A stretch of 52,540 bases of DNA from Desulfovibrionaceae bacterium. GTDB taxonomy: Bacteria > Desulfobacterota > Desulfovibrionia > Desulfovibrionales > Desulfovibrionaceae. The stretch spans positions 1-52,540 of the forward strand of contig WSYE01000029.1 in the NCBI GenBank assembly GCA_009773665.1, read 5' to 3'. This document shows, in pieces, positions 5,258-45,601 of the stretch (positions are counted from its first letter, which is position 1; each line of letters opens with the position of its first letter). The notes below the pieces were generated by a model. That model was not told where the DNA came from. It was given only the letters and a program-made list of their open reading frames with translations, and did no database searches. Both the position numbers and the translations under genes were made by a program.

Positions 5258-5318
5258 AAACCAAGAGAACCAGTTGTTTTGTTTGCGAAAAATATGTTCG
5301 TGTTTTTCGCAAACGCGA
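5258..5318 (-). repeat. Dispersed hairpin element, copy A
   Basis: A 12-bp perfect stem (5281-5292 with 5303-5314) encloses ten bases that can pair further to leave a GAAC tetraloop on the minus strand. On that strand the hairpin is followed by TGGTTCTCTTGGTTT (complement of 5258-5272). It begins six bases after the ydcF-like stop codon, so it could act as that gene's 3' hairpin. Related copies lie at 28652-28708 and 45541-45601. The stem differs between copies by paired changes. Confidence 0.8.
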
Positions 5319-5320
5319 CG

Positions 5321-5965
5321 CTAGTTGACGGCAGGAGCGGAACGGAACCGCCCGCCCAGCATGTAGAAAATGGTCTTGGGAATCTCCAGCAGCACGATCC
5401 TGGCCGATTCCTGGTTCTTCCACCAGGCGGTGGCGATCCTCTCCGAGGGAGTGCCCACCACGCGTATCTGCCAGCCGGGCAGGGCGTCGGTGAAGACCAT
5501 GCGCGCGCGGCGCACGTGGTAGGGCGAGGTGACCACCAGCAGCGACCCCGGTTCCTTGCCCAGTTGCGCGGTCAGCGCCTCGGCCTCCTGGGCGGTGCTG
5601 AGCAGGTCGTCCCCGAAGTATTCCATGGCCTCGTCCGGGACGCCCTTCTTGCGCAGGATGGACTTGTAGAGCTCCTCGCGCCTGGGGAAGGCGATGTGGT
5701 TCTGGTCCAGCACGCGCTCACTGGGCCAACGGGCCACACGCCCGATATACACCTTCTTGGCCATGCCCAGTTGGTAGAGTTCCGCGCCGTAGGCCGCGCG
5801 GTTGAAGTTGCCGCCCAGCACCACCATGGCGTCGCTGCGTACGGGCGGGTCGCCGGTCTGGAGCCAGTAACCCGCCGAGAGCAGAAGCCCTACGCCGATG
5901 ACCACGGCGGCCAGCAGCAGGTGTTCGCCGACATGGACCACGGCTTTCAGGCTGGTGCGCATCAT
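5321..5965 (-). CDS. DUF218 (YdcF/SanA/ElyC-type) membrane protein
   Basis: 214-residue protein with one N-terminal membrane segment (about residues 15-34) and a DUF218 domain. Typical signs are AMVVLGG near residue 46, a central acidic region, and the [15 protein letters not shown] motif. Family members act in envelope processes (ElyC, SanA), but the biochemical role is unclear. The start is set by a 4-base ATGA overlap with the end of tgt, which implies translational coupling. A longer reading upstream would lie entirely inside tgt and was not used. The hairpin element at 5281-5314 follows the stop. Confidence 0.9.
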
Positions 5966-7134
5966 GGCGTTGTCCTCGGTGCGAACACCTCCTGGTAGTG
6001 CGACTTGTAGGCCGCGAAACGTCCCTGGGCGATGGCCTCGCGCGCGCCCCGGGTCAGCTCCAGGAAGAAGTGCACGTTGTGGATGGTGTTCAGCCGGTAG
6101 GAGAGCAGTTCCTGCGCCCGGAAGAGGTGGCACAGGTAGGCCTTGGAGAAGGTGCGGCAGGTGTAGCAGGTGCAGTCCGGGTCCAGGGGGGAGTCGTCCT
6201 CCCTGTATTCCACACGCTTGATGTTCACCTGGCCTCTGCTGGTGTAGAGCGTGCCGTTGCGGGCGTTTCGCGTTGGCAGCACGCAATCGAACATGTCGAT
6301 GCCGTTGGCGATGCCCTCCAGGATGTCCAGGGGCTTGCCCACGCCCATGAGGTAGCGCGGCTTTTCTGCGGGCAAAAGCGGCGCGGTGTGGCCCATGAGA
6401 TCGTACATCTCCGGCGTGGACTCGCCCACGGACAGGCCGCCGATGGCGTGGCCTTCGAAGCCCATGGAGCAGATGGCCTCGGCGCTTCTGGCGCGAAGGT
6501 CCTTGAAGAAGCCGCCCTGCACGATGCCGAACACCAACTGGCCGTTACGGCCCGGCTCGTGATTATCGCGCGAGCGCGCCGCCCAGGCGTGGGTCAGGTC
6601 CAGGGATTTTTCGGTGTAGGCGTGGTCCGCGCCGTAGGGCACGCACTCGTCCAGCACCATCATGATGTCCGAGCCGAGATTGCGCTGGATGTCCAGGACC
6701 TTCTCGGGCGTGAAAAAGTGTTTGGAGCCGTCCAGGTGTGAGCGGAATTCCACGCCGTCTGGCTTCAATTTGCGCAGCTCGGACAGGGAGAACACCTGAT
6801 AGCCGCCCGAATCCGTGAGGATGGGGCGGTCCCAGCCCATGAATTTATGCAGGCCGCCCCTGCGCGCGACCAGCTCGTCGCCGGGGCGCAGGTACAGGTG
6901 GTAGGTGTTGCCCAGGATGATCTGGGAGCCTGCGTCTTTCAGGTCCTGCGGGCACAGGGATTTCACCGTGCCCACTGTGCCCACGGGCATGAAAGCCGGG
7001 GTGCGCACCACGCCGTGGGCGGTGTGCAGCTCGCCCAGGCGGGCGGGGCCGTCGGTGGCCTGGATGGTGAAAGTTCCTGGGGCCTTGGCGTCAGCAGGGG
7101 CATGGGACATGGCGGAAGTGTCGAGGGTATTCAT
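5962..7134 (-). CDS. tgt: Queuine tRNA-ribosyltransferase
   Basis: 390-residue tRNA-guanine transglycosylase. It exchanges guanine-34 of GUN anticodons for preQ1 in queuosine synthesis. Visible family signs are [12 protein letters not shown] with the general-acid Asp, FGIVQGG, a [12 protein letters not shown] stretch with the nucleophilic Asp, and the C-terminal zinc site CTCYTC with a downstream His. The chosen ATG lies five bases after the nth stop codon. The SD-like GGAAG is within the nth 3' end. A few extra N-terminal residues could be non-native if the ATG at 7110 is used. The gene is coupled to the downstream DUF218 gene. Confidence 0.96.
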
Positions 7135-7139
7135 ATCGC

Positions 7140-7738
7140 TTACTTCCCGGCCACGCCGCACTTGGGGCAGATGTCTTCCAGTTCGCAGGACGGGCACTTG
7201 GGCGTTCTGGCCGGGCAGACCTCGCGACCGAAGTAGACCAGCATGTTGTTGATCTCGCCCCAGTGTTCACGCGGGTAAAGCGGCATCAGGTCGCGCTCGA
7301 TCTTCACGGCGTCCTTGGCGTCGGTGAGGCCCAGGCGGTAGGCCAGCCGGGTCACGTGGGTGTCCACCGCGATGCCCTCGTGTATGCCGAACGAGTTGGA
7401 CATCACGATGTTGGCGGTCTTGCGGGCCACGCCGGGCAGGGTGACAAGCTCCGCCAGGGTGCGGGGCACCTCACCGCCGAACACGTCCATCACGCGCTTG
7501 GCCGCGCCGATAAGGTTCTTGGCTTTGTTGTGGTAGAACCCGGTGGAGCGGACAAGCCGGGCCAGCGGGCGAAGAGGTTCGGCGTGACCATGTTCACGCG
7601 CGCGTCGGTGCATTGGGCGGCCAGCACGGTGGCCACCAGGAGCTCCCAGGCGTTGGCGTGGTCCAGGGCAGGGGCGGTCTTGGGATATCTGAGGCGCAGG
7701 CGCGCGAAGATGATGGGGGCGCGTTCGGTTGACGTCAT
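7140..7738 (-). pseudogene. nth: Endonuclease III, broken by internal deletion
   Basis: Two reading frames together encode Nth, the Fe-S DNA glycosylase/AP lyase for oxidised pyrimidines. The first frame, from the ATG at 7738, gives the N-terminus through LLVATVLAAQCTDARVN and LFARWPG. The second resumes at LVRSTGFYHNKAKNL. It carries the helix-hairpin-helix LPGVARKTANIVM with the catalytic Lys, the Asp in VDTHVTRLA, and the CX6CX2CX5C cluster. The frames meet near 7550-7570. From memory of the family, about 15-20 residues that normally lie between these blocks are missing, so this is a deletion that is not a multiple of three. It is either a real null allele or an assembly error. Confidence 0.82.
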
Positions 7739-7801
7739 GCCCGGTGGGATAGCCGAAAGCCGGGCGGGGAGCAATGTTGTGGAACACGAACGCTTTCCGT
7801 C

Positions 7802-8866
7802 TCAGGGAGTCTGCCACCCCTCGCCCACGTCCATCACGCGGAAAGCCTCCTGGGAGACGCCCTGTTCGCAGCGCGCCTTGGCCAGATCATACAGGGGCGT
7901 GTCGATGCCCTCGTCGGTCAGCTTGAACACTCCGTGGTGAGTGGCCACAGCGTGGTGCGCGCCCAGGTCGCGCATGGCCAGGACGGCCTCCTCGGGGTTC
8001 ATGTGGGCAGGGGCCATGAACCAGCGCGGCTCATAAGCCCCTATTGGCAAGATCGCCACGCGCATGGTCCCGAAGCGCGAGCGGATCAGCCGGAAAGCCT
8101 CGCCCGCGCCGTAGCCCGTGTCGCCGAAAAAGCCGACGGCGCCGCCGGGGGCTTCCAGCACGAAAGAGCACCACAGGGCCTTGCGACGGTCGAACACGCC
8201 CCTGGCCGACCAGTGGTGCGCCGGGGCGGCATGAACCCGCAGGGACGCTCCAAAATTCGCGCAGTCCCACCAGTCGAGCTCCTCGCACACGCGCCGTCCC
8301 AGCGCCCGGTCGATGAGCGCGGCGTTGCCAAGGGGCGCGATAATGCGCGGGCGGTGGCGCTTCCACAGGGCGGTGAGCGTGGGCAGGTCCAGGTGGTCGT
8401 AGTGGTTGTGGCTGACCAGCACCGCGTCGATGGGCGGCAGCATGTCCAGGGGGAGGCCGGGCTTTCGCGCGCGTTTGGGACCTATGAGAAGCGGGCCGGT
8501 GCGGTCAGACCAGACCGGATCGGTGAGGACGTTCACCCCGGCGGTCTGGATGAGCGTCGTGGAGTGGCCGATATACGTGATGCGCAGTTCGTCGCCATGA
8601 ACGCGCTCGGGCGGGATGTCCTGCCGGGTGTTCGGCACATGGGCGGGCCAGGGTGTGGAGCGCGAGGTGAACTTCCAGCGGAGCAGGTCCGCGACATTCC
8701 GGTCCTCGGTGGGCCATGGCGTATGGAATCGCTGGCCGTCGAAGTGATCGGAATGCGGATAGGGGCGCGCGCGATTTGCGCTCGATACACCCGAACAGGC
8801 CGGGCCGGTCGCGGCACCGTCCCCTGGGATGAAGCGTGCGAAAAATCTCTGAATGAACTGCTGCAT
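7802..8866 (-). CDS. Metallo-beta-lactamase-fold hydrolase, NAPE-PLD/UlaG-like
   Basis: 354-residue metal-dependent hydrolase. The zinc motif HNHYDHLD is at 153-160. Before it come YIGHSTTLI and LTDPVWSDR, and after it GDTGYG and a late THHG, the pattern of the NAPE-PLD and RomA-type branch of the fold. Substrates could be phospholipid-derived phosphodiesters, but this cannot be read from the sequence. The start was chosen at the Met before QQFIQRFFARF because the upstream extension runs through the strong hairpin at 8945-8975. No convincing Shine-Dalgarno is seen. The gene lies on the same strand downstream of pdaD but beyond a terminator. Confidence 0.88.
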   Translation of the reverse strand: MQQFIQRFFARFIPGDGAATGPACSGVSSANRARPYPHSDHFDGQRFHTPWPTEDRNVADLLRWKFTSRSTPWPAHVPNTRQDIPPERVHGDELRITYIGHSTTLIQTAGVNVLTDPVWSDRTGPLLIGPKRARKPGLPLDMLPPIDAVLVSHNHYDHLDLPTLTALWKRHRPRIIAPLGNAALIDRALGRRVCEELDWWDCANFGASLRVHAAPAHHWSARGVFDRRKALWCSFVLEAPGGAVGFFGDTGYGAGEAFRLIRSRFGTMRVAILPIGAYEPRWFMAPAHMNPEEAVLAMRDLGAHHAVATHHGVFKLTDEGIDTPLYDLAKARCEQGVSQEAFRVMDVGEGWQTP

Positions 8867-8944
8867 GACGACCGTCTTTGCCGAATGTTTGCGAAGCGCT
8901 CCGTCCGGATAATTCCCCGGACGCCTCCAGGCAAGCCGGACCAC

Positions 8945-8975
8945 AAAAAAAGCCCCGCATGAGCGGGGCTTTTTT
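8945..8975 (-). terminator. Rho-independent terminator of pdaD
   Basis: Stem AGCCCCGC (8951-8958) pairs perfectly with 8963-8970 around an ATGA loop. It is flanked by an A-run on one side and a T-run on the other, so it can work in both directions. It lies 20 bases after the pdaD stop codon. Confidence 0.93.
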
Positions 8976-8994
8976 GATCGATTTGCAGCTGCGC

Positions 8995-9549
8995 TTACGG
9001 CAGGAACACCACGGCGGAGATGGTGGTGGTCCACATGCCGGAGACGCCCTGGGTGACGCTGGGCCACGAGGTGGATTCGATGATCTTGCCGGACATCATG
9101 TAGATCTCGCGGCGTTCGTCGTAGGCGGTCTCGGGATCGAAGTCGATGCCCAGAGTGGTGGCCAGCATGGTGGAGGCCAGGTCCTCGGCGAAGTCGCCGA
9201 TTTCCTTCTCTTCCTTGCCGAAGGAGGTGTGCTCGGAAATGTATCCGTAGTGGTCCTTGCTGGCGGGGAAGGCCATGCCCACGGCGGAACCGACCAAACG
9301 GCCCTTCTCGTCAGTGGCGTTGCGGGCCATCACGCAGAAGGTGATCTGACCTGGGTTGAGCAACTGCGTGCCCTCTTCCATGGTGAGGAGAGTGCAGTTG
9401 GGGGGATAGATGCTCGACACGTACACCAGGTTCAGCTTTTCGATTCCGGCATCGCGAAGGGCGAGCTCGAAGGATTGCAGCTTATTCTTGTGACGGCCAA
9501 GGCCTCGGGTGAAGAAGGCTTTGGTCGGGACGAACGTTTGTCCGAACAT
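8995..9549 (-). CDS. pdaD: Pyruvoyl-dependent arginine decarboxylase
   Basis: 184-residue protein of the PvlArgDC family, which converts arginine to agmatine, the first step of polyamine synthesis. The proenzyme cleaves itself at a Ser-Ser bond to create the pyruvoyl group; here the pair is Ser45-Ser46 in [11 protein letters not shown]. Other family signs are the N-terminal [19 protein letters not shown] region and a central [15 protein letters not shown] lies seven bases before the ATG. It sits 47 bases downstream of the SPOR gene and behind argS. The strong hairpin at 8945-8975 follows the stop. Confidence 0.93.
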
Positions 9550-9596
9550 TGGAAGTCCTCCGTGGGAGTGCCTCCCCGCCTTGCGGGGGAAACGAG

Positions 9597-10463
9597 TCAT
9601 AAAGATTTTTTGTCGCGAAGTATAGGCTTTTTTGCCCCTGCTTTTTCCAGGGTCTGCTTGATCTCCGCATCGGTTCCCTTCACCTGGACGATGACCCGGT
9701 ACAGGGTTTTCCCATCCACTTTAGCCTCCTCCACGGAGGCTTTCACGCCCTTCTTGGCCAGACGGTCCACCTCGGCCTGGGCCTGGGACTGCTTGTCCAG
9801 GGCGGCGACCTGGTAGGTAGCCTGGATTTTTGGCGATTTCGTGTCTTTTGCGGCCTTGGCGTCCTTGGAGTCCTTCGAATCCTTGGCCGCTTTGGGGTCC
9901 TTGGGGTCCTTGGGATCTGAGGGCTTGGCCGGATCAGCCTTGGGCGTCTTGCGGTCCGGCTGGGCCGGGGACGTGGCCACCTGGCCCTTGGGCAGGGGGG
10001 CCGGGGTCTTCTCCAGCGACGTTGTGGGAACCGTCGCACCTGCTGAACCGGGCGCTCCAGCAGTCGGAGCCAGCGAGTTCACGGGCGCGGAGCCTCCCTG
10101 AAGCGTTGCGGCACCGGGCGCGTCACCGGGCTTCTTGGCGGAGTCCACGGTGACGGTTTCCTGAGGCTTCCTGCCCTGGAGGGTGTCCTGGAACTGGAGG
10201 TCTTCGGGTTTGAGCACCGTGGGCGGCTCCCGATTCTCCTGCTGCGCGGAGGGCGCCGTGGAGGGCATGATCTGCGCCACCTGGGGGACGGCGTTTTCCG
10301 GCTTGTAGCCGCGCCCGACCAGCACCCCCAGGATGAACACCCACACAATGCCAAGCACCCCCACCACAACCACGGAGATAAGTCCGGGGCCGGTGAACTC
10401 GAAGCTGAATTTCCGGGGGCCTTCAGGAGGCTTGCTGACGTTGAAGCGGTCCACGACCTTCAT
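9597..10463 (-). CDS. SPOR-domain membrane protein
   Basis: 288-residue single-pass protein. A short cytoplasmic head is followed by a membrane helix at about residues 27-50. Next comes a long Pro/Ala/Lys-rich low-complexity region with repeated KDPKD, KDSKD and KDAK units (about 180-210). A C-terminal SPOR-like domain spans about 212-288. SPOR domains bind denuded glycan strands of septal peptidoglycan, so a role at the division site is likely by family. The KDxKD tract makes the C-terminal half strongly charged. It lies between argS and pdaD on one strand and may share their transcript. Confidence 0.85.
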
Positions 10464-10572
10464 GCGGTTCTCCGGCTGAGGCGGCGTTGCGGCCCGTCGT
10501 CACCCCGAATGCGCGGATGGTGGCGGGCCGCCGTAAATGGTGACGATAGTATTATAACGCCCGGATAAGACG

Positions 10573-12228
10573 CTACATCTTTTCCGGGGCGCTCACTCCC
10601 AACAGCTCCAGCCCGCTTCGGACCACCTCGCCCACTGCCGCAAGCATGAGCATGCGGGCGCGCATGAGGTCCTCGTCTGGCGCGGCCAGCACGGGGTTGG
10701 CCGAATAGTACCGGTGCAGCAGGCCCGCCAGTTCGCGCAGGTAGAAGCTGACCACATGGGGGCTCAGCGTCTGCGCGGCATTGGCCAGCGTGTCGGGATA
10801 CTGCTCCATGAGGCGCATCAGGTCAAGGTCCTCAGGGGTGTCCAACTGGGCCAGCAATGCCTGGGAACACTCCGGCATGGCCACGCCGCGCTCGGCGGCC
10901 TTGGCGAACAGCGAACAGATGCGGGCGTGGGCGTACTGCACGTAGTACACCGGGTTGTCCATGGACTGCTGCTTGACCAGATCGAGGTCGAAGTCCAGGT
11001 GGCTGTCGGATTTGCGCGAGAGGAACATGAAGCGGGCCGCGTCCACGCCCACCTCGGCGCACACGTCGGACAGGGTCTCGAACTGCCCGGCGCGGGTGGA
11101 CATGGCGATCTGCTCACCGCCGCGCAGGAGATTCACCAGCTGCACCAGGATGACCTTGAGGTCGTCTGCGTCGCGGCCCAGAGCCTGGACAGCGGCCTTC
11201 ATGCGCGGGACGTAGCCGTGATGGTCTGCGCCCCAGATGTCCACGACGGTGTTGAAGCCGCGCGCGTACTTGTCGGCATGGTAGGCGATGTCCGAGGCGA
11301 AGTAGGTCAGCTCACCGGTGGATTTGCGCAGCACGCGGTTCTTGTCGTCGCCGTAGCGGGTGGTGTCCATCCAGGCCGCGCCTTCTTCTTCGTAGGCCAG
11401 CCCGCGCGACTTCAGGTCCTCAAGGGTGCGCTCAACGGCACCGGCGGCCACCAGGGACTTCTCCGAAAACCACACCTGATGCTCCACGCGGAAATCGGCC
11501 AGATCCTTCTGGATGCCAGCCAGGATGGACTTCATTCCGTACTCGTAGCAGATGTCCTGGCCCTCTGCCGGGGGCAGGTCGCACAGGGCGCTGCCCTTGA
11601 GGGTGAGGAGCTCGCGCGCCAGATCGATGATGTATTCGCCCTTGTACCAGTCCTCGGGATAGGCCACGGGCTTCTTCAGAAGTTCCAGGCAGCGCACCCA
11701 GATGGATTCGCCCAGAAGGCGCATCTGGCGGCCAGCGTCGTTGATGTAGTATTCGGTGGAGACTTCGTAATCCATGGCCCGCAGGATGCGCGCCACGCAG
11801 TCGCCCACGGCCGCGCCGCGTCCGTGCCCGATGTGCAGGGGGCCGGTGGGGTTGGCGGACACGAACTCCACTTGCACCTTGCGGCCCCGGCCCAGGTTGA
11901 ACTTGCCGAAGCACTGTTTGACTTCCAGCACCTCTTCCACGGTCTTCTGCCAGAAGGCCGGAGCGAAGGTGACGTTCAAAAAGCCCGGTCCGGCGACTTC
12001 CACTTTGGACAGGGCGGGGTCGGCGGCCAGAAGATCCTTCTTCAGTTCTTCGGCCAGATCGCGGGGCTTCATGCCGAGCTTGCCCGCCGTGAGCATGGCT
12101 ACGTTGCAGGCCATGTCGCCGAACTGTTTGTCCTTGGGGGGCTCGATGGTGGCCTTGTCGGGCCAGGCGGCCCCTTTCTTTTCCAGGATGGAGCCCAGGA
12201 GGCTCCGCAGATGAGTCAACGCGCGCAT
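10573..12228 (-). CDS. argS: Arginyl-tRNA synthetase
   Basis: 551-residue class I aminoacyl-tRNA synthetase charging tRNA-Arg. The HIGH signature is intact at 132-135 within a [16 protein letters not shown] stretch. The N-terminal Add-1 domain, the [14 protein letters not shown] region and the C-terminal helical anticodon-binding domain ending [13 protein letters not shown] are all present. A canonical KMSKS is not seen, as is usual for this enzyme; an MSTRAG stretch occupies the equivalent place. Downstream on the same strand are a SPOR protein and pdaD, so arginine charging and arginine decarboxylation are encoded close together. Confidence 0.97.
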
Positions 12229-12315
12229 GATGTTCAGTCCCGCTTGCTTTTCTGAGCGATTATATCCTGCCGCAACACATGTCCGGCAAACTTGCCAAGC
12301 CCCCTATATGGGTTT

Positions 12316-12424
12316 CCAAAGGGCGGAGCCCTTTGGCCGCCGGAGGCTTCTTAAGCGATAGAAAAATCAAGTTCCGTCGGACGGTCTGGGGCTCTCACCC
12401 CGTCCGCCGCCGGAGGCTTCCTAA
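12316..12424 (-). repeat. Hairpin repeat region between fabD and argS
   Basis: 12316-12336 is a perfect hairpin (stem CCAAAGGGC, loop GGA) sharing the GGGC-GGA-GCCC core with 171-183. A direct repeat CCGCCGGAGGCTTC follows it at 12337 and recurs at 12407. Between the two copies lies a second GC hairpin (GGGG/CCCC with GGAC/GTCC). The block sits downstream of fabD and may end its transcript. That function is inferred. Confidence 0.6.
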
Positions 12425-12442
12425 ACGGCAGCATGTCCCGCG

Positions 12443-27770: not shown

Positions 27771-28078
27771 GGTGTGAGGCTCATGAAAAGTCGTTTGAAA
27801 GTATGCCATCTCTACGCCAGCGGACTTGAGGGGTCAATGATCGGAGACTGGCGCGGACTCGTCGTCACCATCTGGAATGTTCGGAAGCCCGCATGGGGCC
27901 GGCTTTTCCCGAAGGCGGGGCAGGCGGGCAGCTTGGATGCGCGGTGAGAGCGCGTCAGGACTTCCCTCGCAGGCCTGCTTTAAAAAGCGGCCTCTGGCCT
28001 GTTTTTCCCTTGCTAAGTAATGCAAAGCCATGCATATGATTACGTATAGCTCACTTTTCAACCATTCAGGAGGAAAGT
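27771..28078. promoter_or_regulatory. Divergent mlaE / TPR-gene spacer with candidate promoter
   Basis: 308-bp spacer without a convincing gene. On the plus strand TTGCTA (28010-28015) and CATATG (28033-28038) are 17 bases apart, with TATGAT overlapping at 28035. This is a plausible promoter for the TPR gene, whose leader carries AGGAGG at 28069-28074. An imperfect hairpin followed by a T-run lies at 27971-28006. Its role is unclear, since no plus-strand gene precedes it. Confidence 0.35.
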
Positions 28079-28645
28079 ATGGGAATCAGGATTTTCGTTT
28101 TAGCTCTCGTGGCCGCTCTCACCATTGGCGTGGCCCCTGTTCAGGCCGCCAAGAAAGCTGCGGTGAGTGAAGCGAGCGCGATCAGCGCGACGTACATGAA
28201 GGGCGTCGATCAGGTGGCAAGCCGCCAGTGGAACGCGGGCATTGCCACCCTGACCACGGTTATCGACAACCCCAAAACCACAAAGGACATCCTGTCCAAC
28301 GCTCTGGCTAACCGCGGCGCGGCATACTCCAACAAGAAGAGCTACGATCTGGCCATGGCCGATTTCAACAAGGCCCTGGAAATAAACCCCGACCTTGCCA
28401 CCGCGCTGTACGAACGCGCTCGCGTGTTCGCCATGCAGGGCAAACACGCCGAAGCAGTTGCCGACCTGAACAAGGTCATCGGCATGTCCCAGCCCAGCAT
28501 CATCACGGCCGGGTATCATTACAACCGTGGCGTGAGCTACATGGGCATGCTGCCCCCGCAGCCCGACAAGGCCAAGGAAGATTTCGCCATGGCCAAGAAG
28601 ATGAACCCCAAGCTGAAGATTCCCGTCAAGTATAAAGACCTGTAG
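28079..28645 (+). CDS. Exported TPR-repeat protein
   Basis: 188-residue periplasmic protein. The signal peptide is about 1-23 (VAPVQAA end). It is followed by tetratricopeptide repeats from about residue 75, for example ANRGAAYSNKKSYDLAMADF and ALEINPDLATALYERARVFA, then a third repeat with HYNRGVSYMG. TPRs are protein-binding scaffolds; the partner is unknown. A strong AGGAGG precedes the ATG. Six bases after the stop begins a perfect 15-bp hairpin, copy B of the dispersed element. Confidence 0.9.
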   Translation: MGIRIFVLALVAALTIGVAPVQAAKKAAVSEASAISATYMKGVDQVASRQWNAGIATLTTVIDNPKTTKDILSNALANRGAAYSNKKSYDLAMADFNKALEINPDLATALYERARVFAMQGKHAEAVADLNKVIGMSQPSIITAGYHYNRGVSYMGMLPPQPDKAKEDFAMAKKMNPKLKIPVKYKDL

Positions 28646-28651
28646 TGTCGT

Positions 28652-28708
28652 GTTCGTGAAAAACATGAATATGTTTTTCACGAACTAAGAACATGGTTCT
28701 CTTGGTTT
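28652..28708 (+). repeat. Dispersed hairpin element, copy B
   Basis: A perfect 15-bp stem (28652-28666 with 28671-28685) closes a GAAT tetraloop. It is followed by TGGTTCTCTTGGTTT at 28694-28708. It starts six bases after the TPR-gene stop, the same relation that copy A has to its gene. Compared with copy A, the outer stem changes from GTTTGCG/CGCAAAC to GTTCGTG/CACGAAC, so pairing is preserved. Confidence 0.85.
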
Positions 28709-28764
28709 GGAACCACACGGTATGATGCATTCTGGGAACGACATACTTGGAACGTTGCATAAGC

Positions 28765-28790
28765 GGCCCGACCGGGAAACCGGTCGGGCC
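28765..28790. terminator. Strong GC hairpin between convergent genes
   Basis: An 11-bp perfect stem (GGCCCGACCGG) closes a GAAA tetraloop. It lies between the convergent TPR gene and the PEP-CTERM gene. The downstream T-content is modest on the plus strand and poor on the minus strand, so it may work for either. Confidence 0.7.
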
Positions 28791-28806
28791 GTTGCCGTTT
28801 CTATCC

Positions 28807-29568
28807 TTACGCCCTGATCCTGCGGATGTACGCCAGCCCCACGAAGCCGAGGCCCAGAAGCATTACGGTGCCGGGTTCCGGCGTGGCTACGGGAGGATTG
28901 GGGGTGTCGAAGCTGCCGGTGATGTTTAGCGAGAGGATGGTGTCGCCTCCTGCTATGCTGTTCCATGCGGTCGGCCCTACGACAAAGTCCAGGAAGTCGC
29001 CGACCTGCATTGCCAGACCGATAATACTGAAGTCATTGTACCAGGAGTTGTTTTCAGTGAGCAGCAGCCCCGCTGTCGACCCGGAGCTGTAGATGTATTT
29101 GCTCATGTATGCCCTGTTGTAGCTGTCGAAGTAACCGCTGAGGGTATACGTTCCGTCGACTGGCGCAGTGAAACGGACAGTGGCCAGTTCACCGGACGGG
29201 CCAGGGTGGAGGGCAACGTCTCCGGGCTCAACCCAGTTGAACAGGGTCGTGTCGGAGTTGTTTTTCCAGACCTGGGGAATCCAGTACATGTTCGATATGG
29301 TGGAGTCGTTCCACCTGTCCCCTCCGTAGACTGGGTACAGCATGGAATCAAACAGGTTCAGGGAGCCTCCCATCGTTGAAACCCAGCCAAATTGCCAAGG
29401 CCCGTTGGGGTTTGAGGTCGTGCTGAAATCGTCTGACAAGTTGTAGACCGTATCCGCTTTCGCCATCTGAGGCAGTAATGCTGCAATCAATATAGCAAGT
29501 GCGAATACGCCTCTCGTCATTGTTCTGAACACGCCGTCCTGAGAAAATCCAGAATGTGACCGAATCAC
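28807..29568 (-). CDS. PEP-CTERM sorting-domain protein
   Basis: 253-residue exported protein. An N-terminal signal region (hydrophobic LAILIAALLPQMAKA) precedes an Asn/Ser/Gly/Trp-rich beta-type body. The C-terminal sorting signal is complete: PEPGTVMLLGLGFVGLAY then RRIRA. PEP-CTERM proteins are cleaved and processed by an exosortase (EpsH/XrtA type) for export or surface/EPS attachment. No exosortase gene lies in the window. The GTG at 29568 is preferred because AGGAGG lies nine bases before it; a Met at 29520 would also leave the signal peptide intact. A hairpin follows the stop. Confidence 0.85.
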   Translation of the reverse strand: MIRSHSGFSQDGVFRTMTRGVFALAILIAALLPQMAKADTVYNLSDDFSTTSNPNGPWQFGWVSTMGGSLNLFDSMLYPVYGGDRWNDSTISNMYWIPQVWKNNSDTTLFNWVEPGDVALHPGPSGELATVRFTAPVDGTYTLSGYFDSYNRAYMSKYIYSSGSTAGLLLTENNSWYNDFSIIGLAMQVGDFLDFVVGPTAWNSIAGGDTILSLNITGSFDTPNPPVATPEPGTVMLLGLGFVGLAYIRRIRA

Positions 29569-30107
29569 GACCTTCTTCCTCCTGTAATGGTTGCACAAAG
29601 TCGCTGACGCGCTGCCTGTGGCTGTGCAGCCCAGGTCGAGGGAATGGTACAGCTGGTTCCGTAAGACCGAGACTGCCAGGTCAGGTTCGAACCATTCTCT
29701 GGATATGTCAATCTAACAATACAATATAATACGTAGAACAGATACTAAATAATAATAAATTGGTATTGCTATGGATTTGTGCAGAAAATATTCACCGTCG
29801 GTTTTGAGCCCGGCATTGTTCGGGTGGCGTGCTCGGAAAGTTGGCTAGGGAAGTGCCTACGGTTGCGTCGTAAGGCTGTTCTTCGAAATCATGCTCCGCG
29901 ACCAGTGGGGAGGGCATCCGCGTCGGAAAGAGGCATCGGGCTTGGCTTCGTCAGAGGGCTATGTTGTTGAATCGCTGCCGATGGGGGACATGCGGCTTTA
30001 TGAATCACCGTTTGGCAGGTATGCAGGTGCCTGGGTGAGCACTTGGTCAGGACGGATTTTTCGGGGTACAGCTACTGTGATGGGTCATTCTATCTGAGGG
30101 AGTCGCT
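29569..30107. other. 539-bp spacer with AT-rich core
   Basis: I see no convincing gene. Bases 29701-29770 are strikingly AT-rich for this genome (runs such as ATACAATATAATACG and AATAATAATAAAT) and probably hold promoter or protein-binding sites for the divergent PEP-CTERM and yjbQ genes. A palindrome GGTTCGAACC lies at 29684-29693. A 63-codon reading at 29779 lacks a ribosome site and any recognisable pattern. Confidence 0.5.
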
Positions 30108-30711: not shown

Positions 30712-30906
30712 GGGGCCTCCCGTTGTATCGAGAAGCACTGCTTGCAAACCGCAGGCCTTTATGAAAATCCTTAAATTTTAGTGTGTTGGTGTGTTCTGGC
30801 GTGCACCGGTCTGTATGGTCTCCCAACATGATGCCGGAATATTTTACAGATAACGCCTCGCCGCTGACTCCCTCCTTCCGACTGCTCCAAGCTATGGGCC
30901 AAAGAT

Positions 30907-30977
30907 AAGGCCGCTCCCTTCCGGGAGCGGCCTCGCGTTTTATGGATGTCCAGGCCGCGTTAGCGGATGAACAGCAT
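30907..30977 (-). repeat. Copy of the glutamine synthetase 3' end and terminator
   Basis: Seventy of 71 bases match 31467-31537 at an offset of 560. The copy carries the last five codons (MLFIR) and stop of the glutamine synthetase gene plus its downstream hairpin. Identity stops abruptly at both ends. The one difference restores a base pair in the hairpin here. Beyond the repeat I see only patchy resemblance to the gene. Confidence 0.92.
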
Positions 30978-31438: not shown

Positions 31439-31466
31439 AAGCGAATGCGGCCGGTCAGCCCAACAA

Positions 31467-31537
31467 AAGGCCGCCCCCTTCCGGGAGCGGCCTCGCGTTT
31501 TATGGATGTCCAGGCCGCGTTAGCGGATGAACAGCAT
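31467..31537 (-). repeat. 71-bp repeat at the glutamine synthetase 3' end
   Basis: This is the partner of 30907-30977, differing at one base. It contains the real gene's last codons, its TAA at 31520-31522 and its terminator. A direct repeat spanning a gene's 3' end is the usual footprint of site-specific integration, but no integrase is present. Confidence 0.9.
31468..31493 (-). terminator. Terminator of the glutamine synthetase gene
   Basis: Stem AGGCCGC pairs with GCGGCCT and extends by three more G-C pairs past one C-A mismatch to a 4-base loop. On the minus strand it is followed by TTTTGTT. It lies 26 bases beyond the stop codon. Confidence 0.85.
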
Positions 31538-39031: not shown

Positions 39032-39042
39032 GACGGAGCAGG

Positions 39043-40065: not shown

Positions 40066-40123
40066 AACGCTGAGTCCGTCACACTGAATTTTTCATATTC
40101 TAACTGATGGAGCGTCAAAAGAA

Positions 40124-40152
40124 AAGGGCGGGAGCCTGCTGCTTCCGCCCTT
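40124..40152 (-). terminator. Terminator of the NlpC/P60 gene
   Basis: A 12-bp stem (40124-40135 with 40141-40152) with one wobble pair closes a five-base loop. On the minus strand it is followed by the T-rich CTTTTCTTTTGA. It lies downstream of the lipoprotein hydrolase gene and upstream of the L,D-transpeptidase gene. Confidence 0.88.
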
Positions 40153-40217
40153 GAACTTGAGAAACCGGAATGGCGGCATCGCTGGGACTGGCCAGGATGC
40201 GCCGTCTCGCGCTGGAT

Positions 40218-40859
40218 CTAGAAAACCCTGCGTGCTCCTGTGTACTTGCGTTCCCACACGGGCTCGTCCAGGCTGGATATCTTGACGGTGTCGCCGGAGC
40301 TGGAGCTGTGGATGAACTTGTTGTCTTCCAGGTAGATGCCGACGTGGGTGATGCGTTTCTTGCTGCCGAAGAATACCAGGTCGCCTTTGCGGAGCTGGGC
40401 CTTGGCGATCACTTTGCCTTCCTGGAACTGTTCGCGGGAACTGCGGGGCAGGTTCACGCCGAGCTTGCTGTACACCCAGGTGGTGAAGCCGGAGCAGTCG
40501 AAACCGGTGCCGGGTTCGGTGCCGCCGGAGCGGTACAGGGTGCCGATCTGGCTGAAGGCCAGGGTGACGAGGCGCTGGTCATGCTTGCTGCCGGTGAATC
40601 CGGTGAGTTCGAAGGGATTCTTGGAGCCAGCGACCACGCTCGGCACGGGCAGCGTGCAGAATTTCGCACCGGTGAAGTGCAAAAACGGCGAGGTCGGTTC
40701 AAATTCGGTTGCGGCGGCTTCGGGTGCGGCAGCGTTTTCAGCGAGGTTTTGACGTGAGGCAGACTGTTTTGAACCGCAAGCGGTGGTGGTGAGCAGGATG
40801 GCGAGCACCAGCATGGTGCGTACGGTCATCCAGGGGGCAAGGGGTGTGGTGCGTGGCAT
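40218..40859 (-). CDS. NlpC/P60 peptidoglycan hydrolase lipoprotein
   Basis: 213-residue lipoprotein. The signal ends TTTAC with lipid-anchor Cys28. The C-terminal NlpC/P60 domain has the nucleophile Cys122 in GFDCSGF, His172 in THVGIYL and a third polar residue at His184. The enzyme class cuts gamma-D-Glu-diaminopimelate bonds in stem peptides. The Pro/Ala-rich linker (35-60) fits a tethered hydrolase. GAGGAAGAG directly precedes the ATG. A terminator separates it from the L,D-transpeptidase gene downstream. Confidence 0.92.
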   Translation of the reverse strand: MPRTTPLAPWMTVRTMLVLAILLTTTACGSKQSASRQNLAENAAAPEAAATEFEPTSPFLHFTGAKFCTLPVPSVVAGSKNPFELTGFTGSKHDQRLVTLAFSQIGTLYRSGGTEPGTGFDCSGFTTWVYSKLGVNLPRSSREQFQEGKVIAKAQLRKGDLVFFGSKKRITHVGIYLEDNKFIHSSSSGDTVKISSLDEPVWERKYTGARRVF

Positions 40860-41299
40860 CTCTTCCTCGTCTCCTTGTTCATTGTTGGCCGATTCGGACA
40901 GTTTCGATACGAATCCAGATCTAACCGCACATGCGGCTTATTAGTTCATTCGAAAACTCTCAGGGCATTCGGAAGGACTTTCGTGTGTCGCGCCCGGCGA
41001 GATATTTGCTCGCTACGGGGTGGGCGCGTGTGCGGGGGCGGCGTGTATGGGGATCAAAAACCCTGCCGGGAGCCTCGCTGGTGTCCCTCCGTGAGGTCGA
41101 TTTCTAGTCACAGGGAAAATTTATGTCCAGAGTTTTTCGGGCTTTTTTTCGGTGTTTTTCCTAAATGCCCTGAATGAAATGACAAAGTTTTGTTGCATTC
41201 TTGTTCACTTGTGATAGGAATATATATTTGTTCTAAAATCGACCCGATAGGGAAACTTCTTGCGCTTTTCCTGGGCTGAACGCATCCTGCAAGCCTGCC
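40860..41299. promoter_or_regulatory. 440-bp divergent spacer with candidate promoter
   Basis: No gene is seen. On the plus strand TTGTTC (41201-41206) and TATATT (41223-41228) are 16 bases apart, upstream of the RamA-like gene, in an AT-rich stretch that stands out in this genome. A small palindrome CCGCACATGCGG lies at 40927-40938 in the leader of the divergent NlpC/P60 gene. Confidence 0.35.
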
Positions 41300-42847
41300 A
41301 TGAACACATTTTGGATCACCCCCAAAGGGGGAGGCGAACAGGTTCTGTCGCCCGTGCGGGGTGGATTGAGCCTGGCCCAGCATCTTTATCTCGCAGGGGC
41401 GTTCTCCTCGCGTCCGCTCTGCTCGGGAGCCGGACGGTGCGGACTGTGCCAGGTCCGCTTCATCTCCGACGCGCCCGTGCCTCTGCCGATGGAACTGCTG
41501 CGCATCTCTTCCGAACGTCTGGAGCGTGGCTGGAGGCTCTCCTGCGTGCGCCAGCCTGAACCGGGATCGTCGGTGGAGGCAGCTCTGACGACGCCGACAC
41601 TCCTGCCGGAAACGCTGCCCGGCGGGTGCCCAAAGGGTTGCCTCGGTATCGACCTGGGAACCACATCTATACACTGGCGTTTCGAGTCGGACTCCCGCGC
41701 GCTGTCCGGCAGCTTCCACAACCCGCAGCTCGGGGCCGGTTCGGAGGTCATGTCGCGTCTGGCCCTGGCCGCACATCCCGACGGAGCCGCGCGGCTCAGG
41801 CAGGCTGCCGCCCAGGCCGTCTATACTATATTGAAAGACGCGGGCTGCATCCCGGAGAGCATCTGCCTGGCGGGCAATACCTGCATGACCTTTCTGGCCC
41901 TGGGCCTGGACGTTTCCGGCCTGGCCGCCGCGCCCTACCGGGTGGACTGGGCGGGAGACGCTGTGGCGACCCTTGACGAGGTGCTCCCGCAGGTCTACAT
42001 CCCGCCGCTGCTCGCGCCCTTTGTGGGGGGCGACATCAGCGCCGGACTGGCCGCCCTGGAATTTTCCGACCGCAAACCCACGCCTCCCTACCTGCTGGCA
42101 GATCTTGGCACCAACGGCGAATTTGCCCTGGCCCTGCCGGACGGGCGCTTTCTGCTGGCCAGCGTCCCCATGGGGCCAGCCCTTGAGGGCGTCGGCATGC
42201 GCCGGGGCATGCTGGCCGGACCGGGCGCGGCAGTGGCCTACGCCCTGTCGCCGCGCGGGCTTGAACCGGTGCTCTTTGCTGCTGACGCTTCGGGCGCGTC
42301 CGTGAAGGGCATCTCCGGCACCGGCTACCTGAGCCTGCTGGCCCGGTTGATCACGCTCGGGGTGGTCTCACAAAGCGGTCGTTTCGAGCGCGGGGCTGCA
42401 TCGCCGCTGGCTGCGCGGGTGCTGGCCGGACTTGGCGAACAGGACGGCGAACCCTGCTTGGATGTCGGCGGGGCCGCATTGTTCGCTTCGGATGTGGAAG
42501 CACTCCTGAAAGTGAAGGCCGCTTTCGGAGCTGCCGTGACAATTTTACTGGCCGAGGCGGGCCTCGCGTTTTCGGACCTGCACGCCGTGCTGCTGGCGGG
42601 CTCTCTCGGGGAGCACGTTTCGTCGCCCGATCTTGAGGTCCTGGGGTTTTTGCCTCCGGGAGGCGCGGGCAAGGTCCAGGCCGTGGGCAACTCATCCCTG
42701 GACGGAGCCTGTCTGGCTGCGGGCAGTCAGGACGTGCGGCGCTGGCTCGGCGGGCTTGCTGCCAGGGCGCAGCTGGTCGACATTGTGGCCGTGCCCGATT
42801 TTCAGACGATGTATCTCGATTCCATGAGGTTTTCCCATGTCCGATGA
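41300..42847 (+). CDS. RamA-like ASKHA/ferredoxin reductive activator
   Basis: 515-residue protein pairing an N-terminal [2Fe-2S] domain (Cys41, Cys47, Cys50 in CSGAGRCGLC, and Cys82) with an ASKHA-type ATPase fold of the DUF4445 family (LGIDLGTTSIHW near 115, PFVGGDISAGL, LADLGTNGEFAL). RamA and related proteins use ATP to reactivate oxidised corrinoid proteins in methyltransferase systems. No corrinoid protein or methyltransferase is in the window, so its client is elsewhere. The Rsm22-like gene overlaps its end by 11 bases. Confidence 0.88.
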   Translation: MNTFWITPKGGGEQVLSPVRGGLSLAQHLYLAGAFSSRPLCSGAGRCGLCQVRFISDAPVPLPMELLRISSERLERGWRLSCVRQPEPGSSVEAALTTPTLLPETLPGGCPKGCLGIDLGTTSIHWRFESDSRALSGSFHNPQLGAGSEVMSRLALAAHPDGAARLRQAAAQAVYTILKDAGCIPESICLAGNTCMTFLALGLDVSGLAAAPYRVDWAGDAVATLDEVLPQVYIPPLLAPFVGGDISAGLAALEFSDRKPTPPYLLADLGTNGEFALALPDGRFLLASVPMGPALEGVGMRRGMLAGPGAAVAYALSPRGLEPVLFAADASGASVKGISGTGYLSLLARLITLGVVSQSGRFERGAASPLAARVLAGLGEQDGEPCLDVGGAALFASDVEALLKVKAAFGAAVTILLAEAGLAFSDLHAVLLAGSLGEHVSSPDLEVLGFLPPGGAGKVQAVGNSSLDGACLAAGSQDVRRWLGGLAARAQLVDIVAVPDFQTMYLDSMRFSHVR

Positions 42848-44009
42848 CCAGACAGGCATCCTGCGCGACGCAGTGCCGCTCTTTTCCAAGCCCGCTCCCG
42901 CCCTGGCCGAGGCCCTGACCGCCTACCGCAAGGTGCTGGACTCCGTGCATCCTCTTAAAGGAAAGCACCGCGCGGGCCTGCCCCAGGACGTGAAGCGCCT
43001 CTCCCTGGCCCTGACCGCCGAGCGAGGCCCCGGCCCCCAGACCAACTATCTGGCCAACCCGGCCAACCTGTCCGCATACCTCTATTACTTCCTGCCCTGG
43101 AACATCTACCGCCTGTCGCGCCTGCTCACGGGGCTCAACTTCGACATGAAGGACGGCGACTCACTCCTGGATCTGGGCTGCGGCCCGCTGACCCTGGCCC
43201 AGGCGTTATGGCTCGCAAGGCCGCACCTGCGTGAGCGCAGGCTGCGTCTTGTCTGCGTGGACCAGACCGGGCAGGCCATGCGGGCCGGGCTCGCGCTCTT
43301 TGAAGCGCTCACCGGCGAGGCGGGCCGCAACTGGACCATCGACATCGTGCAGGCCCCGGCCCACAAGGCTCCCGGCGGACCCTTCCAGGTGGTGGCCGCT
43401 GCCAACGCCTTGAACGAGCTGGCCAGGGGGCGCGGCGAGGAGGGCCACCACGCCATGGAGCGCATGGCCGAGATGCTCACCGGGCGCATGGCCCACAATG
43501 CGCAGCTTCTGCTGGTGGAACCGGGCACGCGCCTGGGCGGCAAGCTGCTGTCGCGGCTGCGCGAGATGCTTATGGAGGAGGGGCTCTCCCCCCTGGCTCC
43601 CTGCACCCACGCGGAGCCGTGCCCCATGCTGGCCCCGCGCTGGCGCTCCTGGTGTCACTTCGTGTTCCCGTCCGACGGCGCGCCCGAGTGGCTGGTCAAC
43701 CTGACCCGCGTGTCCGGGCTAGACAAGGACCGCGCCAGCCTGAGCTTTATGCACATGAGCGCCGACGAGCCGCACCACGAAGACACCAGCTCCCGCGTGG
43801 TGTCGCACCGTTTCACGCTGCCCTCCGGGCTTGGGGCCTACGCCTGCGACCACACCGGGCTTCGCCTGCTGACCTTCCCGGCGGCGCCGCGCGGCATGGT
43901 GTCCGGGGCGCTTCTGGAGGCCGGGCTGCCCGTGCCCAAGCAGCGCGACGCCAAGACCGGTACTTGGCTCACACCCATCCGGGACGGACGCGGCGATGCG
44001 GGTCGTTGA
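42837..44009 (+). CDS. Rsm22-like Fe-S methyltransferase-fold protein
   Basis: 390-residue protein of the Rsm22/METTL17 family. The SAM-type motif LLDLGCGPLTLA is at 110-121. The C-terminal half carries the Fe-S cysteine pattern CTHAEPCPM...WCHF (about 254-275) known from mitochondrial members, where a [4Fe-4S] cluster is used in small-subunit assembly. Methyltransferase activity is not proven for the family. GAGG lies seven bases upstream of the ATG. It overlaps both the RamA-like gene and lipB, so all four genes to lipA read as one operon. Confidence 0.86.
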   Translation: MSDDQTGILRDAVPLFSKPAPALAEALTAYRKVLDSVHPLKGKHRAGLPQDVKRLSLALTAERGPGPQTNYLANPANLSAYLYYFLPWNIYRLSRLLTGLNFDMKDGDSLLDLGCGPLTLAQALWLARPHLRERRLRLVCVDQTGQAMRAGLALFEALTGEAGRNWTIDIVQAPAHKAPGGPFQVVAAANALNELARGRGEEGHHAMERMAEMLTGRMAHNAQLLLVEPGTRLGGKLLSRLREMLMEEGLSPLAPCTHAEPCPMLAPRWRSWCHFVFPSDGAPEWLVNLTRVSGLDKDRASLSFMHMSADEPHHEDTSSRVVSHRFTLPSGLGAYACDHTGLRLLTFPAAPRGMVSGALLEAGLPVPKQRDAKTGTWLTPIRDGRGDAGR

Positions 44010-44652
44010 TCTCGGGCTGATCTCCTTTGCTGACGCCCTGGCGCTGCAGGAGGCCGCCGTGCAGGACGTGCTGGACGGTGGCGAGGAGCGCCTGTTCGTG
44101 CTGGAGCACACTCCGGTGGTCACCTTTGGCCGACACGGGGGCGAGGCCTTTCTGCGCTTCACTCCGGACGAGCTACGCGCCCAGGGCGTGGACTGCGCCA
44201 AGGCCACGCGTGGCGGGAGCGTCACCTGCCACTTTCCGGGGCAGGCGGTCCTCTATCCGGTGACGCGCCTGTCCGGCAGGCCGGGCGGGCTGAAAAGCTT
44301 TTTCGACTCTCTGGAGCAGACCGCCATCACGGCGCTTGAGGGGCTTGGCATCCAGGCCGGGCGTTCGCCGGGCCGTCCGGGCGTGTGGGTTGGGCCGCGC
44401 AAGATCGCAAGCGTGGGCGTGGGCGTGCGCCGCTGGGTGAGCTATCACGGGCTGGCCCTGAACGTGGGGCCGGACCTGTCGCTCTTTTCCATGATAACCG
44501 CCTGCGGTCTGCCCGGCGTGCAGATGACTTCCGCCGCGCTGGAACTGGAACGGGCGGGAAAACCCGCCGCACAGGCGGACATGCAGACCATGAAAGACGC
44601 GCTGGTCCGGGCCTTCCTGGACGGCGCGCGAGATCAGGCCCATGAACAGTAG
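43996..44652 (+). CDS. lipB: Octanoyl-ACP:protein N-octanoyltransferase
   Basis: 218-residue LipB, which moves octanoate from acyl carrier protein to lipoate-dependent enzymes. Motifs present are EHTPVVTFGRHGG, ATRGGSVTCHFPGQ, the catalytic Lys136 in GPRKIAS and the acyl-thioester Cys170 in ITACGLPG. It overlaps the Rsm22-like gene by 14 bases and lipA by 11, indicating coupled translation with the next step of lipoate synthesis. Confidence 0.96.
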   Translation: MRVVDLGLISFADALALQEAAVQDVLDGGEERLFVLEHTPVVTFGRHGGEAFLRFTPDELRAQGVDCAKATRGGSVTCHFPGQAVLYPVTRLSGRPGGLKSFFDSLEQTAITALEGLGIQAGRSPGRPGVWVGPRKIASVGVGVRRWVSYHGLALNVGPDLSLFSMITACGLPGVQMTSAALELERAGKPAAQADMQTMKDALVRAFLDGARDQAHEQ

Positions 44653-45511
44653 CCCGCGTCTTCCAGCCTGGCTCAAGGTGAAGCCGCCCCAGGGCGAGGA
44701 GTTCTCCCGCACCGCGTCGGTGGTGGCCGGGCAGGAGCTGCACACCGTCTGCCGTCAGGCCCGCTGCCCCAACATGGCCGAGTGCTTCGGCAAGGGCGTG
44801 GCCACGTTCCTTATATTGGGAGGCGTGTGCAGCCGCTCCTGTGGGTTCTGCAACATCACGCCAGGCACCCCCTCGGGGCCGCCGGACCCCGACGAGCCTC
44901 GGCGCGTCTCCGCCGCAGCCGCAAAACTCGGTCTGAAGCATGTGGTGATCACCTCCGTGACCCGCGACGACCTGCCGGACGGCGGGGCGCAGCTGTTCGC
45001 GCAGACCATCCGCGCCGTGCGCGGCGAATTGCCGCAGGCCTCTGTCGAGGTGCTCATTCCCGATTTTCAGGGCGACGCGCAGGCCCTGGGCGCCGTGCTG
45101 GACGCTGCGCCGGACGTGTTGAACCACAACCTGGAGACCGTGCCCGAGCTCTATTCCACGGTGCGCCCCCAGGCGCGCTACGAACAGAGCCTGGAGCTTC
45201 TGGCGCGGGTCAAGGCCTTCGCGAAGGCAGGTGCCCCGGTCAAGTCCAAGAGCGGGCTGATGCTGGGCCTGGGGGAGACGCGCGAACAACTGACGCGGGT
45301 ACTTGAAGATCTGGCCCGCGTGGGCTGCGACATGGTCACCGTGGGGCAGTACCTGCGCCCGTCGCGGCGCAACCTCCCAGTCGTGCGCTACGTGGAGCCC
45401 GTCGAATTCGACGAGATCGCGGAACTCGGCCGGTGCTTGGGCATCCCGGTGATGTACTGCGGGCCTCTGGTCCGCTCCAGCCACGACGCCAAGGCGCTCC
45501 TGGGCGCGTAG
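44642..45511 (+). CDS. lipA: Lipoyl synthase, radical SAM
   Basis: 289-residue LipA, which inserts two sulfurs into protein-bound octanoyl groups. The auxiliary cluster ligands are Cys37, Cys42 and Cys48 (CRQARCPNMAEC). The radical-SAM ligands are Cys63, Cys67 and Cys70 (CSRSCGFC). The C-terminal RSSHDA supplies the serine ligand of the auxiliary cluster. All essential motifs are intact. It is the last gene of the operon and is followed by a 190-bp gap containing hairpin copy C. Confidence 0.97.
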   Translation: MNSSPRLPAWLKVKPPQGEEFSRTASVVAGQELHTVCRQARCPNMAECFGKGVATFLILGGVCSRSCGFCNITPGTPSGPPDPDEPRRVSAAAAKLGLKHVVITSVTRDDLPDGGAQLFAQTIRAVRGELPQASVEVLIPDFQGDAQALGAVLDAAPDVLNHNLETVPELYSTVRPQARYEQSLELLARVKAFAKAGAPVKSKSGLMLGLGETREQLTRVLEDLARVGCDMVTVGQYLRPSRRNLPVVRYVEPVEFDEIAELGRCLGIPVMYCGPLVRSSHDAKALLGA

Positions 45512-45540
45512 CCTCCCGGCTGCCCGCCCGTACGGCTGCG

Positions 45541-45601
45541 AACCAGCAGAAGGGAACCATGAGTTTTGATTTTGAAAAACATGTTCATGGTTTTCAAAAT
45601 C
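45541..45601 (-). repeat. Dispersed hairpin element, copy C
   Basis: An 11-bp perfect stem (45568-45578 with 45591-45601), an A-G mismatch and a further 3-bp CAT/ATG stem leave a GAAC tetraloop on the minus strand. The conserved flank reads ATGGTTCCCTTCTGCTGGTT on that strand, a diverged form of the flank in copies A and B. Unlike A and B it lies in the 5' leader of rfbC and antisense to it, so it may act as a leader hairpin or a terminator of lipA. Confidence 0.7.

Follow-up and report, generated by a model that had tools for sequence, protein, structure and literature searches.

Do hairpins that recur at the ends of unrelated genes mark regulatory RNAs, or do they belong to DNA that moves? 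The question is raised by three hairpins in a 52,540-nucleotide contig of a Desulfovibrionaceae bacterium (WSYE01000029.1, assembly GCA_009773665.1; the whole stretch, positions 1 to 52,540, is referred to as the window). A first-pass annotation placed the hairpins and their 3' flanks at 5258–5318 (minus strand, copy A), 28652–28708 (plus strand, copy B) and 45541–45601 (minus strand, copy C), and these positions and strands were confirmed by the sequence and by a covariance-model search of the window. The outer stems read GTTTGCG/CGCAAAC, GTTCGTG/CACGAAC and GATTTTG/CAAAATC, exactly as claimed, with paired positions changing together. We conclude that the hairpins very probably belong to a non-autonomous mobile DNA element, resembling miniature inverted-repeat transposable elements (MITEs) or REPINs, of a family so far confined to one bacterial family. 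The unit is about 110 nt long, has inverted-repeat ends and two palindromic arms, is present or absent at orthologous sites, and entered at a single CTAG.

A repeated element with defined ends

A covariance model built from the three window copies (R1; 66 positions, 15 pairs) recovered these three copies from the window with E-values of 7e-24, 3e-23 and 1e-20; the remaining three window matches at E≤10 were opposite-strand echoes of the same three palindromes. Against the whole genome of origin (G000, an assembly that is 66% complete) the model gave 132 matches at E≤1, such echoes included. Comparison of 73 copies with their flanks showed that conservation extends about 42 nt past the flank reported at first, up to CGCCACACTAG, which is the inverted repeat of the 5' end CTAGTGTCGCG; the unit runs CTAGTGTCGCG...CGCGACACTAG. 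The earlier view that the conserved flank is more than simple termination would explain was borne out, the flank being the 5' strand of a second stem (arm 2). The three copies are thus real, but hairpin and flank make up only the 5' half of a 110–111-nt element, of which the genome of origin holds at least 74 copies (profile over the examined loci, E≤1e-3).

The consensus reads, in order, CTMGTGTCGCG, arm 1, an AT-rich linker, arm 2 and CGCSACACKAG. It is predicted to fold (110 nt as computed, 111 with the last G) into a three-way junction of −37.8 kcal/mol, made up of a terminal stem and the two arms; in arm 2, GGTTCTC pairs with GAGAAC around an inner hairpin (GTTCATA/TATGAAC). We considered a pseudoknot in which the GAAC loop of arm 1 pairs with GGTTC of the flank, and dropped it because in the longer alignment the partner of GGTTCTC is GAGAAC, close to the 3' end. 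A compensatory relation between the outermost M and K bases was likewise rejected (A/T 41, A/G 26, C/T 15 and C/G 6 of 110). A length of 110–111 nt was found for 85 of the 110 two-ended copies (162 examined) and, under stricter neutral anchoring, for 62 of 81. The 5' arm core GAAAAACATGAACATGTTTTTC is shared widely in the genus, but the 3' half occurs in at least three forms, each palindromic and each giving a total of about 110 nt. Both ends are intact in two internal-deletion derivatives, one of 61 nt (L309, genome G003) and one of 85 nt (L266, genome G078). At L061:5880–6011 (C44 of the genome of origin) a type 2 and a type 3 copy lie with their 5' ends facing, two bases between the model matches, and appear to share one CTAG. 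At four other loci of this genome (L313, L314, L315 and L317, in C3, C7, C28 and C43) a second repeat, with ends like TGAGGCTCTTGCAAAAT...ATTTTGCAAGAGCCTCA, is nested in arm 1, near CATG.

Copies A and B lie directly past stop codons, a position that would suit chance hairpins or ordinary intrinsic terminators, but this explanation is refuted by E-values of 1e-20 and below, by the 74 copies, by their defined ends and by the empty sites described below. No U-run follows arm 1 in any of the three copies, in agreement with the first-pass annotation; a pattern scan, confined to 28000–30000, flags copy B solely by taking stem T's as the tail.

All seven genomes of the genus contained matches in a first search of relatives, compared with none of 16 genomes of the family's other genera; marginal matches (E 0.03–0.07) appeared in 2 of the 16 genomes sampled from the order's other families. 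At E≤1e-3 there were at least 60 copies in G003, at least 15 in G002, at least four each in G004 and G006, at least three in G001 and at least two in G005; outside G000 the counts are lower bounds because parts of those genomes were covered. With a full-length covariance model (R2), matches at E≤0.001 came from 16 of 119 family genomes, spread over 4 of 44 genera. At E≤1e-4, 16 of 199 genomes of the order matched, every one of them from the same family, and nothing reached threshold in the other families sampled. In the other three genera the ends are alike and, within the bounds of the model match, 12 of 13 sequences are 106–111 nt long, the remaining one having 85 nt; their arms differ largely from those of the original genus. 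Covariance searches of the genome and its relatives, the check proposed at first, thus brought up further copies in both.

Insertion sites and junctions

G003 is a syntenic relative, mostly 89–95% identical to the genome of origin over long matches. Both flanks could be placed in G003 for 30 of the 74 copies, a biased sample chosen in part for the presence of G003 copies; 12 of the 30 have an element-sized gap in G003 and are shared, and the others are empty sites, shared in altered length or unclassified. Two empty sites are exact: at C40:24129 and C40:144268, G003 reads CATAAACTAGCCATG and GGGCCGCTAGTCAAATCC, respectively, and the filled sites read CTAG...CTAG. Blurred empty sites were found at C40:185459 (empty CTAG; filled CTAG...CGAG), C52:18994 (empty CTAG; filled CTCG...TTAG) and C44:7663 (empty CTAA; filled CTAG...CGAG), and further ones at C6:5217 (copy A), C40:186045, C40:193663 and C44:39904. 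At C40:111377 the empty site is CGAG and the filled ends are CGAG and CTAG. At the two exact sites the element was inserted at a single CTAG. The suggestion that the hairpins might be a mobile element of this lineage is upheld by the dozens of copies, the terminal inverted repeats, the empty sites in G003 and the restriction of the matches to one family in the samples searched.

CTAG is palindromic, and decay of a duplicated CTAG or TA should therefore strike both inner bases alike. Instead, among the 110 two-ended copies, altered tips read CTCG in 15 cases versus CGAG in 3 at the 5' end, and CGAG in 25 versus CTCG in 3 at the 3' end; the element-side position holds C in 23 of the 110 left ends and G in 35 of the 110 right ones. 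The end motif used at first scored M and K, which could favour such a bias, and in a recount with the outer four bases unscored the ratios were 13:3 (5') and 16:3 (3') of 81 copies, or 11:2 and 15:2 of 75 after removal of shared copies. The bias toward the element-side base argues that insertion at CT^AG duplicates nothing and that this base is the element's own; the outermost A/C and T/G would then be part of the element.

The main rival on the matter of duplication is a MITE of the IS630/Tc1-mariner type, moved by a since lost relative of the IS630 transposase that duplicated the TA inside CTAG, with GTGTCGCG...CGCSACAC as the element proper. In its favour are the size and the terminal repeats, and TA stands at either end in both exact filled/empty pairs. 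IS630 prefers the TA in CTAG, by the title of Tenzen and Ohtsubo 1991 as cited in PMC2170065, and the 107-bp RUP element has been proposed to be moved by IS630-Spn1 (PMC2229807). The tips speak against it, since the element-side base of the supposed TA is the one that changes and the mirror change is rare. Moreover, C52:18994 and C40:185459 have CTAG as the empty site and yet one filled end of CTCG or CGAG, and no intact IS630 gene was found in G000 (66% complete), G002 or G003. We consider this origin possible, if on the unlikely side.

Covariation between copies and decay after insertion

In 25 type 1 copies we counted 28 two-sided cells as compared to 12.3±2.7 in shuffled alignments (0 of 500), and a covariation score of 0.156 versus 0.113 (0 of 500). 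Paired cells amounted to 87.9% in the structure and to 35–53% in slid structures; in arm 1, 5 of 15 pairs carried two-sided changes. From the shuffle and slide results it follows that the covariation between copies is real, and the signal first read from three copies is significant once more copies are aligned.

Its interpretation as selection on an RNA structure did not hold in that form. Stem changes were followed in 10 of 12 orthologous pairs, a truncated copy and the decayed copy C being left out, and of the 61 stem pairs that had changed only 2 were two-sided and paired in both genomes. Single changes to or from a Watson-Crick pair gave G-U and A-C in a ratio of 17:13, plus 19 transversion mismatches. 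The stems thus change one-sidedly and with no clear preference for G-U, which indicates near-free decay once the element is inserted. Most likely, the covariation arose in copies that gave rise to new copies, and selection probably acted on mobile source DNA and not on regulatory RNA at each site. The covariation might also have arisen if the replication machinery copied one arm of a palindrome from its partner.

The competing explanation is a cis-acting regulatory RNA, namely a stabiliser of the 3' untranslated region, a processing site or a terminator, selected at each site. It would account for the excess of covariation (28 against 12.3±2.7), and for the location at 3' ends with an orientation bias of 38:13 in 89 non-redundant copies. 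Strand-specific selection on RNA should also favour G-U over A-C, and in 123 sequences this was so in arm 1 (74:34) and in the arm 2 stem (130:34), but the terminal stem (73:70) and the second hairpin (104:105) were even. For the arm 2 stem, the excess was probably inherited within type 2. Among the 52 type 1 copies, a single pair supplied 14 of the G-U cells of arm 1, and without it the ratio was 11:19 (hand count). Together with the ortholog comparison, the lack of a U-run, the lack of an Rfam family and the presence or absence of copies between close relatives, this makes site-by-site RNA function improbable. The Rfam scan of the window returned four tRNAs and nothing else, and in six element loci the sole match at E≤1 was a sub-threshold microRNA family away from the element.

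Placement at gene ends

The 99 two-ended copies of G000 and G003 were placed relative to genes with a simple caller based on G+C content at third codon positions. Convergent genes flank 34 copies, co-directional genes 49 and divergent genes 1; for 14 a neighbour was undetermined, and 1 lies within one called frame. Partial overlap with a called frame was seen for 20 copies. An end falls on a stop codon in 56 of the 99 (48 TAG, 7 TAA, 1 TGA), the codon being held by the left end in 40 and by the right end in 16. In the window, copy A begins with CTAG and copy B with GTAG, which places the TAG stop codon of each upstream gene inside the element end. The hairpins of copies A and B indeed start six bases past a stop codon, as first reported, and those bases belong to the element's own end.

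CTAG is rare: 102 occurrences were counted in 310 kb of G003 (20-kb stretches L288–L303), which is about twelve times fewer than 1/256. Stop codons account for 21 of these sites, coding positions for 20 and other intergenic positions for 61, some of these being the element's own ends. Much of the location may therefore be due to the rarity of CTAG and to the harmlessness of landing on a stop codon; the orientation bias is not accounted for in this way.

Search for the moving enzyme

A REPIN-like origin, in which an HUH/Y1 transposase acts on single-stranded DNA and cleaves 3' of CT beside hairpins without target duplication, is suggested by the boundaries: the left one probably follows CT, and the right one CT on the other strand. 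In excerpts of the respective papers, the TnpA-REP proteins of E. coli and Stenotrophomonas are described to cleave at CT beside a hairpin (PMC8266576), and REPs to lie likewise mostly between co-directional and convergent genes (PMC3733652). In contrast, PF01797, the Y1/RAYT family, is absent from the seven genus genomes, the element has no GTAG or CGTC tag (the tag position is occupied by CTMGTGTCGC in most copies), and arm 1, with 34 nt, is not a short REP. We therefore think such an origin unlikely.

Several observations weigh against a mobile element as we describe it, and the missing enzyme is the first. The PF01797 search was negative in 7 of 7 genus genomes and positive in 5 of 14 control genomes; it covered the original genus, the other element-bearing genera not being searched. 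DDE_3 (PF13358, the IS630 type) gave only one short match each in G003 and G046 among 6 genomes; none was found in G000 (66% complete) or G002, and the G003 match is a short fragment without element ends. IS110 was absent from the three genus genomes searched (G000, G002 and G003) and present in 2 of 6 genomes overall. The integrase core (rve) occurred in 7 of 7 genomes, and at 30 loci, from 42 matches, no convincing ends were seen within about 1.5 kb. Mobility is deduced from sequence comparison and not from transposition seen to take place. Most empty sites are blurred by divergence, and the two exact sites, taken alone, fit zero duplication and TA duplication alike. The orientation bias at stop codons (38 versus 13 of the 89 without shared copies, p = 0.0006) is not explained by a palindromic CTAG target alone. 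Finally, stems diverge slightly less after insertion (68 of 723 positions) than unpaired sites do (50 of 367; p = 0.039), so that there may be weak selection on the inserted structure.

Two rve loci, L335 and L337, were considered as autonomous partners, but the end-like strings on both sides were weak and unconvincing. In all, the Y1, DDE_3, IS110 and rve searches yielded no transposase partner, other recombinase families not being searched; the enzyme may since have been lost. A longer, autonomous relative was not seen in 20 regions around unassigned exact ends in three genomes, a set that does not cover all such ends. The ends that were read belonged to further short copies or deletion derivatives, to copies in which a second repeat is nested, or to chance strings within genes, and others stood as single ends.

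Proposed mechanism and relation to known repeats

Under the mobile-element reading, the unit proper would be about 107 bp, M GTGTCGCG...CGCSACAC K. A trans-acting recombinase may recognise the element, in its folded or cruciform state, by its terminal repeats and subterminal palindromes, and join it at CT^AG, duplicating no target bases. While arm sequences turn over, the ends, the length and the arm pairing would be kept in source copies by selection for being moved, and inserted copies would decay nearly neutrally. Copies would persist mainly at gene ends for two reasons: CTAG is rare here and frequently belongs to a stop codon, and an insertion does no harm where it restores that codon. A bolder version, which we put forward as tentative and rather doubtful, is that of a distinct class of miniature elements that join CT^AG without duplication through a recombinase reading subterminal palindromes, with arms replaced over time, constant length and fixed ends. 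Abutted ends would re-create CACT^AGTG; if this version is true, excision as a circle (junction CACTAGTG) and site-specific re-entry at a stop-codon CTAG would therefore be possible.

The general features of bacterial MITEs were all found: a length of 100–200 bp, multiple non-coding copies, terminal inverted repeats, and insertion polymorphism with empty sites. MITEs of about 107 bp that have terminal repeats and end in TA are well known from bacteria, and excerpts of one survey (PMC2229807) describe several comparable families. RUP of S. pneumoniae and Correia/NEMIS of Neisseria are similar in length (about 105–107 bp, in the short Correia form), in being non-coding and foldable, and in their terminal repeats, TA ends and many intergenic copies. 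CIR of Caulobacter and Brucella (about 110 bp) shares the length, the two long inverted-repeat arms with a linker and the intergenic location, and the mechanism of its mobility is given there as likewise unknown; unlike the present element, CIR has no terminal inverted repeat and carries GANTC at the loop. ERIC/IRU of enterobacteria is also a structured repeat (127 bp) that can be co-transcribed with its neighbours.

The present element differs from RUP and Correia in that its end bases argue against a TA duplication, two palindromic arms lie inside the terminal stem, and no IS630 partner was found. GANTC is absent from the consensus. The ERIC/IRU sequence is presumably different from ours. 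REPs and REPINs are alike in having palindromes beside a CT boundary, probably no target duplication, and a place between co-directional or convergent genes; they are unlike it in that no RAYT occurs in the seven genus genomes, there is no GTAG/CGTC tag, the arms are longer and AT-rich, and the terminal repeat is extended. REPs of the CGTC kind are apparently without a dedicated transposase, according to an excerpt of PMC3733652. Since the features are mixed, a defining feature tested for REP and one for CIR are lacking and no autonomous partner of the IS630 type was found, we file the element as a bacterial miniature mobile repeat.

The kind is already known, and this family looks new. No description of the repeat was found among the literature listings, and a word search for Desulfovibrio in PMC3733652 and PMC2267715 was negative. 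Exact-pattern scans of genome and viral contigs gave no match, in sets that possibly do not include the original genus. For the genus, this is an interspersed repeat of high copy number whose ends, subtypes and empty sites are defined, and it accounts for hairpins at gene ends that one would otherwise take for terminators or regulatory RNAs. It shows cleanly that strong covariation between dispersed copies does not imply RNA function at each site, and it raises the question of which activity carries 107-bp elements into CTAG stop codons when no transposase is evident.

Copies in the window and other repeats

Copy A is a full type 1 element of 110 nt (5215–5324, minus strand; R2 score 90 bits, E 2e-22), and its orthologous site in G003 is without the element, the empty site not being exact. 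Its 5' terminal inverted repeat CTAGCGTCGCG (5314–5324, minus) is defined by sequence, open reading frame (ORF), Pfam match and consensus ends, and contains the TAG stop codon of an upstream DUF218 gene (5321–6286, minus; ORF and Pfam). Arm 1, the hairpin seen originally, spans 5281–5314 (minus). Arm 2 spans 5225–5270 (minus; R2 alignment and consensus fold), with the GGTTCTC strand (5270–5265) opposite GAGAC (5229–5225) and a weak second hairpin enclosed. The 3' terminal inverted repeat CGCCGCACGAG lies at 5215–5225 (minus; consensus ends and R2 match).

Copy B, a full type 1 element of 108 nt (28642–28749, plus strand; R2 score 78.2 bits, E 3.5e-19), is common to G003 at the orthologous site, where the alignment is 85%. 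Its 5' terminal repeat GTAGTGTCGTG (28642–28652, plus; sequence, ORF and Pfam) contains the TAG stop codon of an upstream gene for a TPR protein (28079–28645, plus; ORF and Pfam), and arm 1 spans 28652–28685 (plus).

Copy C is decayed (45500–45611, minus strand; R2 score 48.9 bits, E 3.9e-11), with arm 1 at 45568–45601 (minus) and a barely recognisable 3' half; it is common to G003, where it is more decayed (64%). The modelled 3' end overlaps the final 12 bases of a lipoyl-synthase-like gene (44642–45511, plus; Pfam), the nearest named relative of which, among the matches listed, is from Desulfovibrionaceae bacterium CG1_02_65_16 (59%), a list from which the original genus may be absent. The 5' end overlaps the beginning of an RmlC-like ORF (45603–46259, plus; Pfam), whose true start is probably later than called.

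Two repeats of other kinds were seen. A further long interspersed repeat (GATGCCTCCGGCGGCC...) lies at L121:4721–5212 and matches G003 in part at dozens of places. In the window, 30898–30977 and 31458–31537 are 80-nt direct repeats, 95% identical and 560 bp apart, with a G+C-rich hairpin within.

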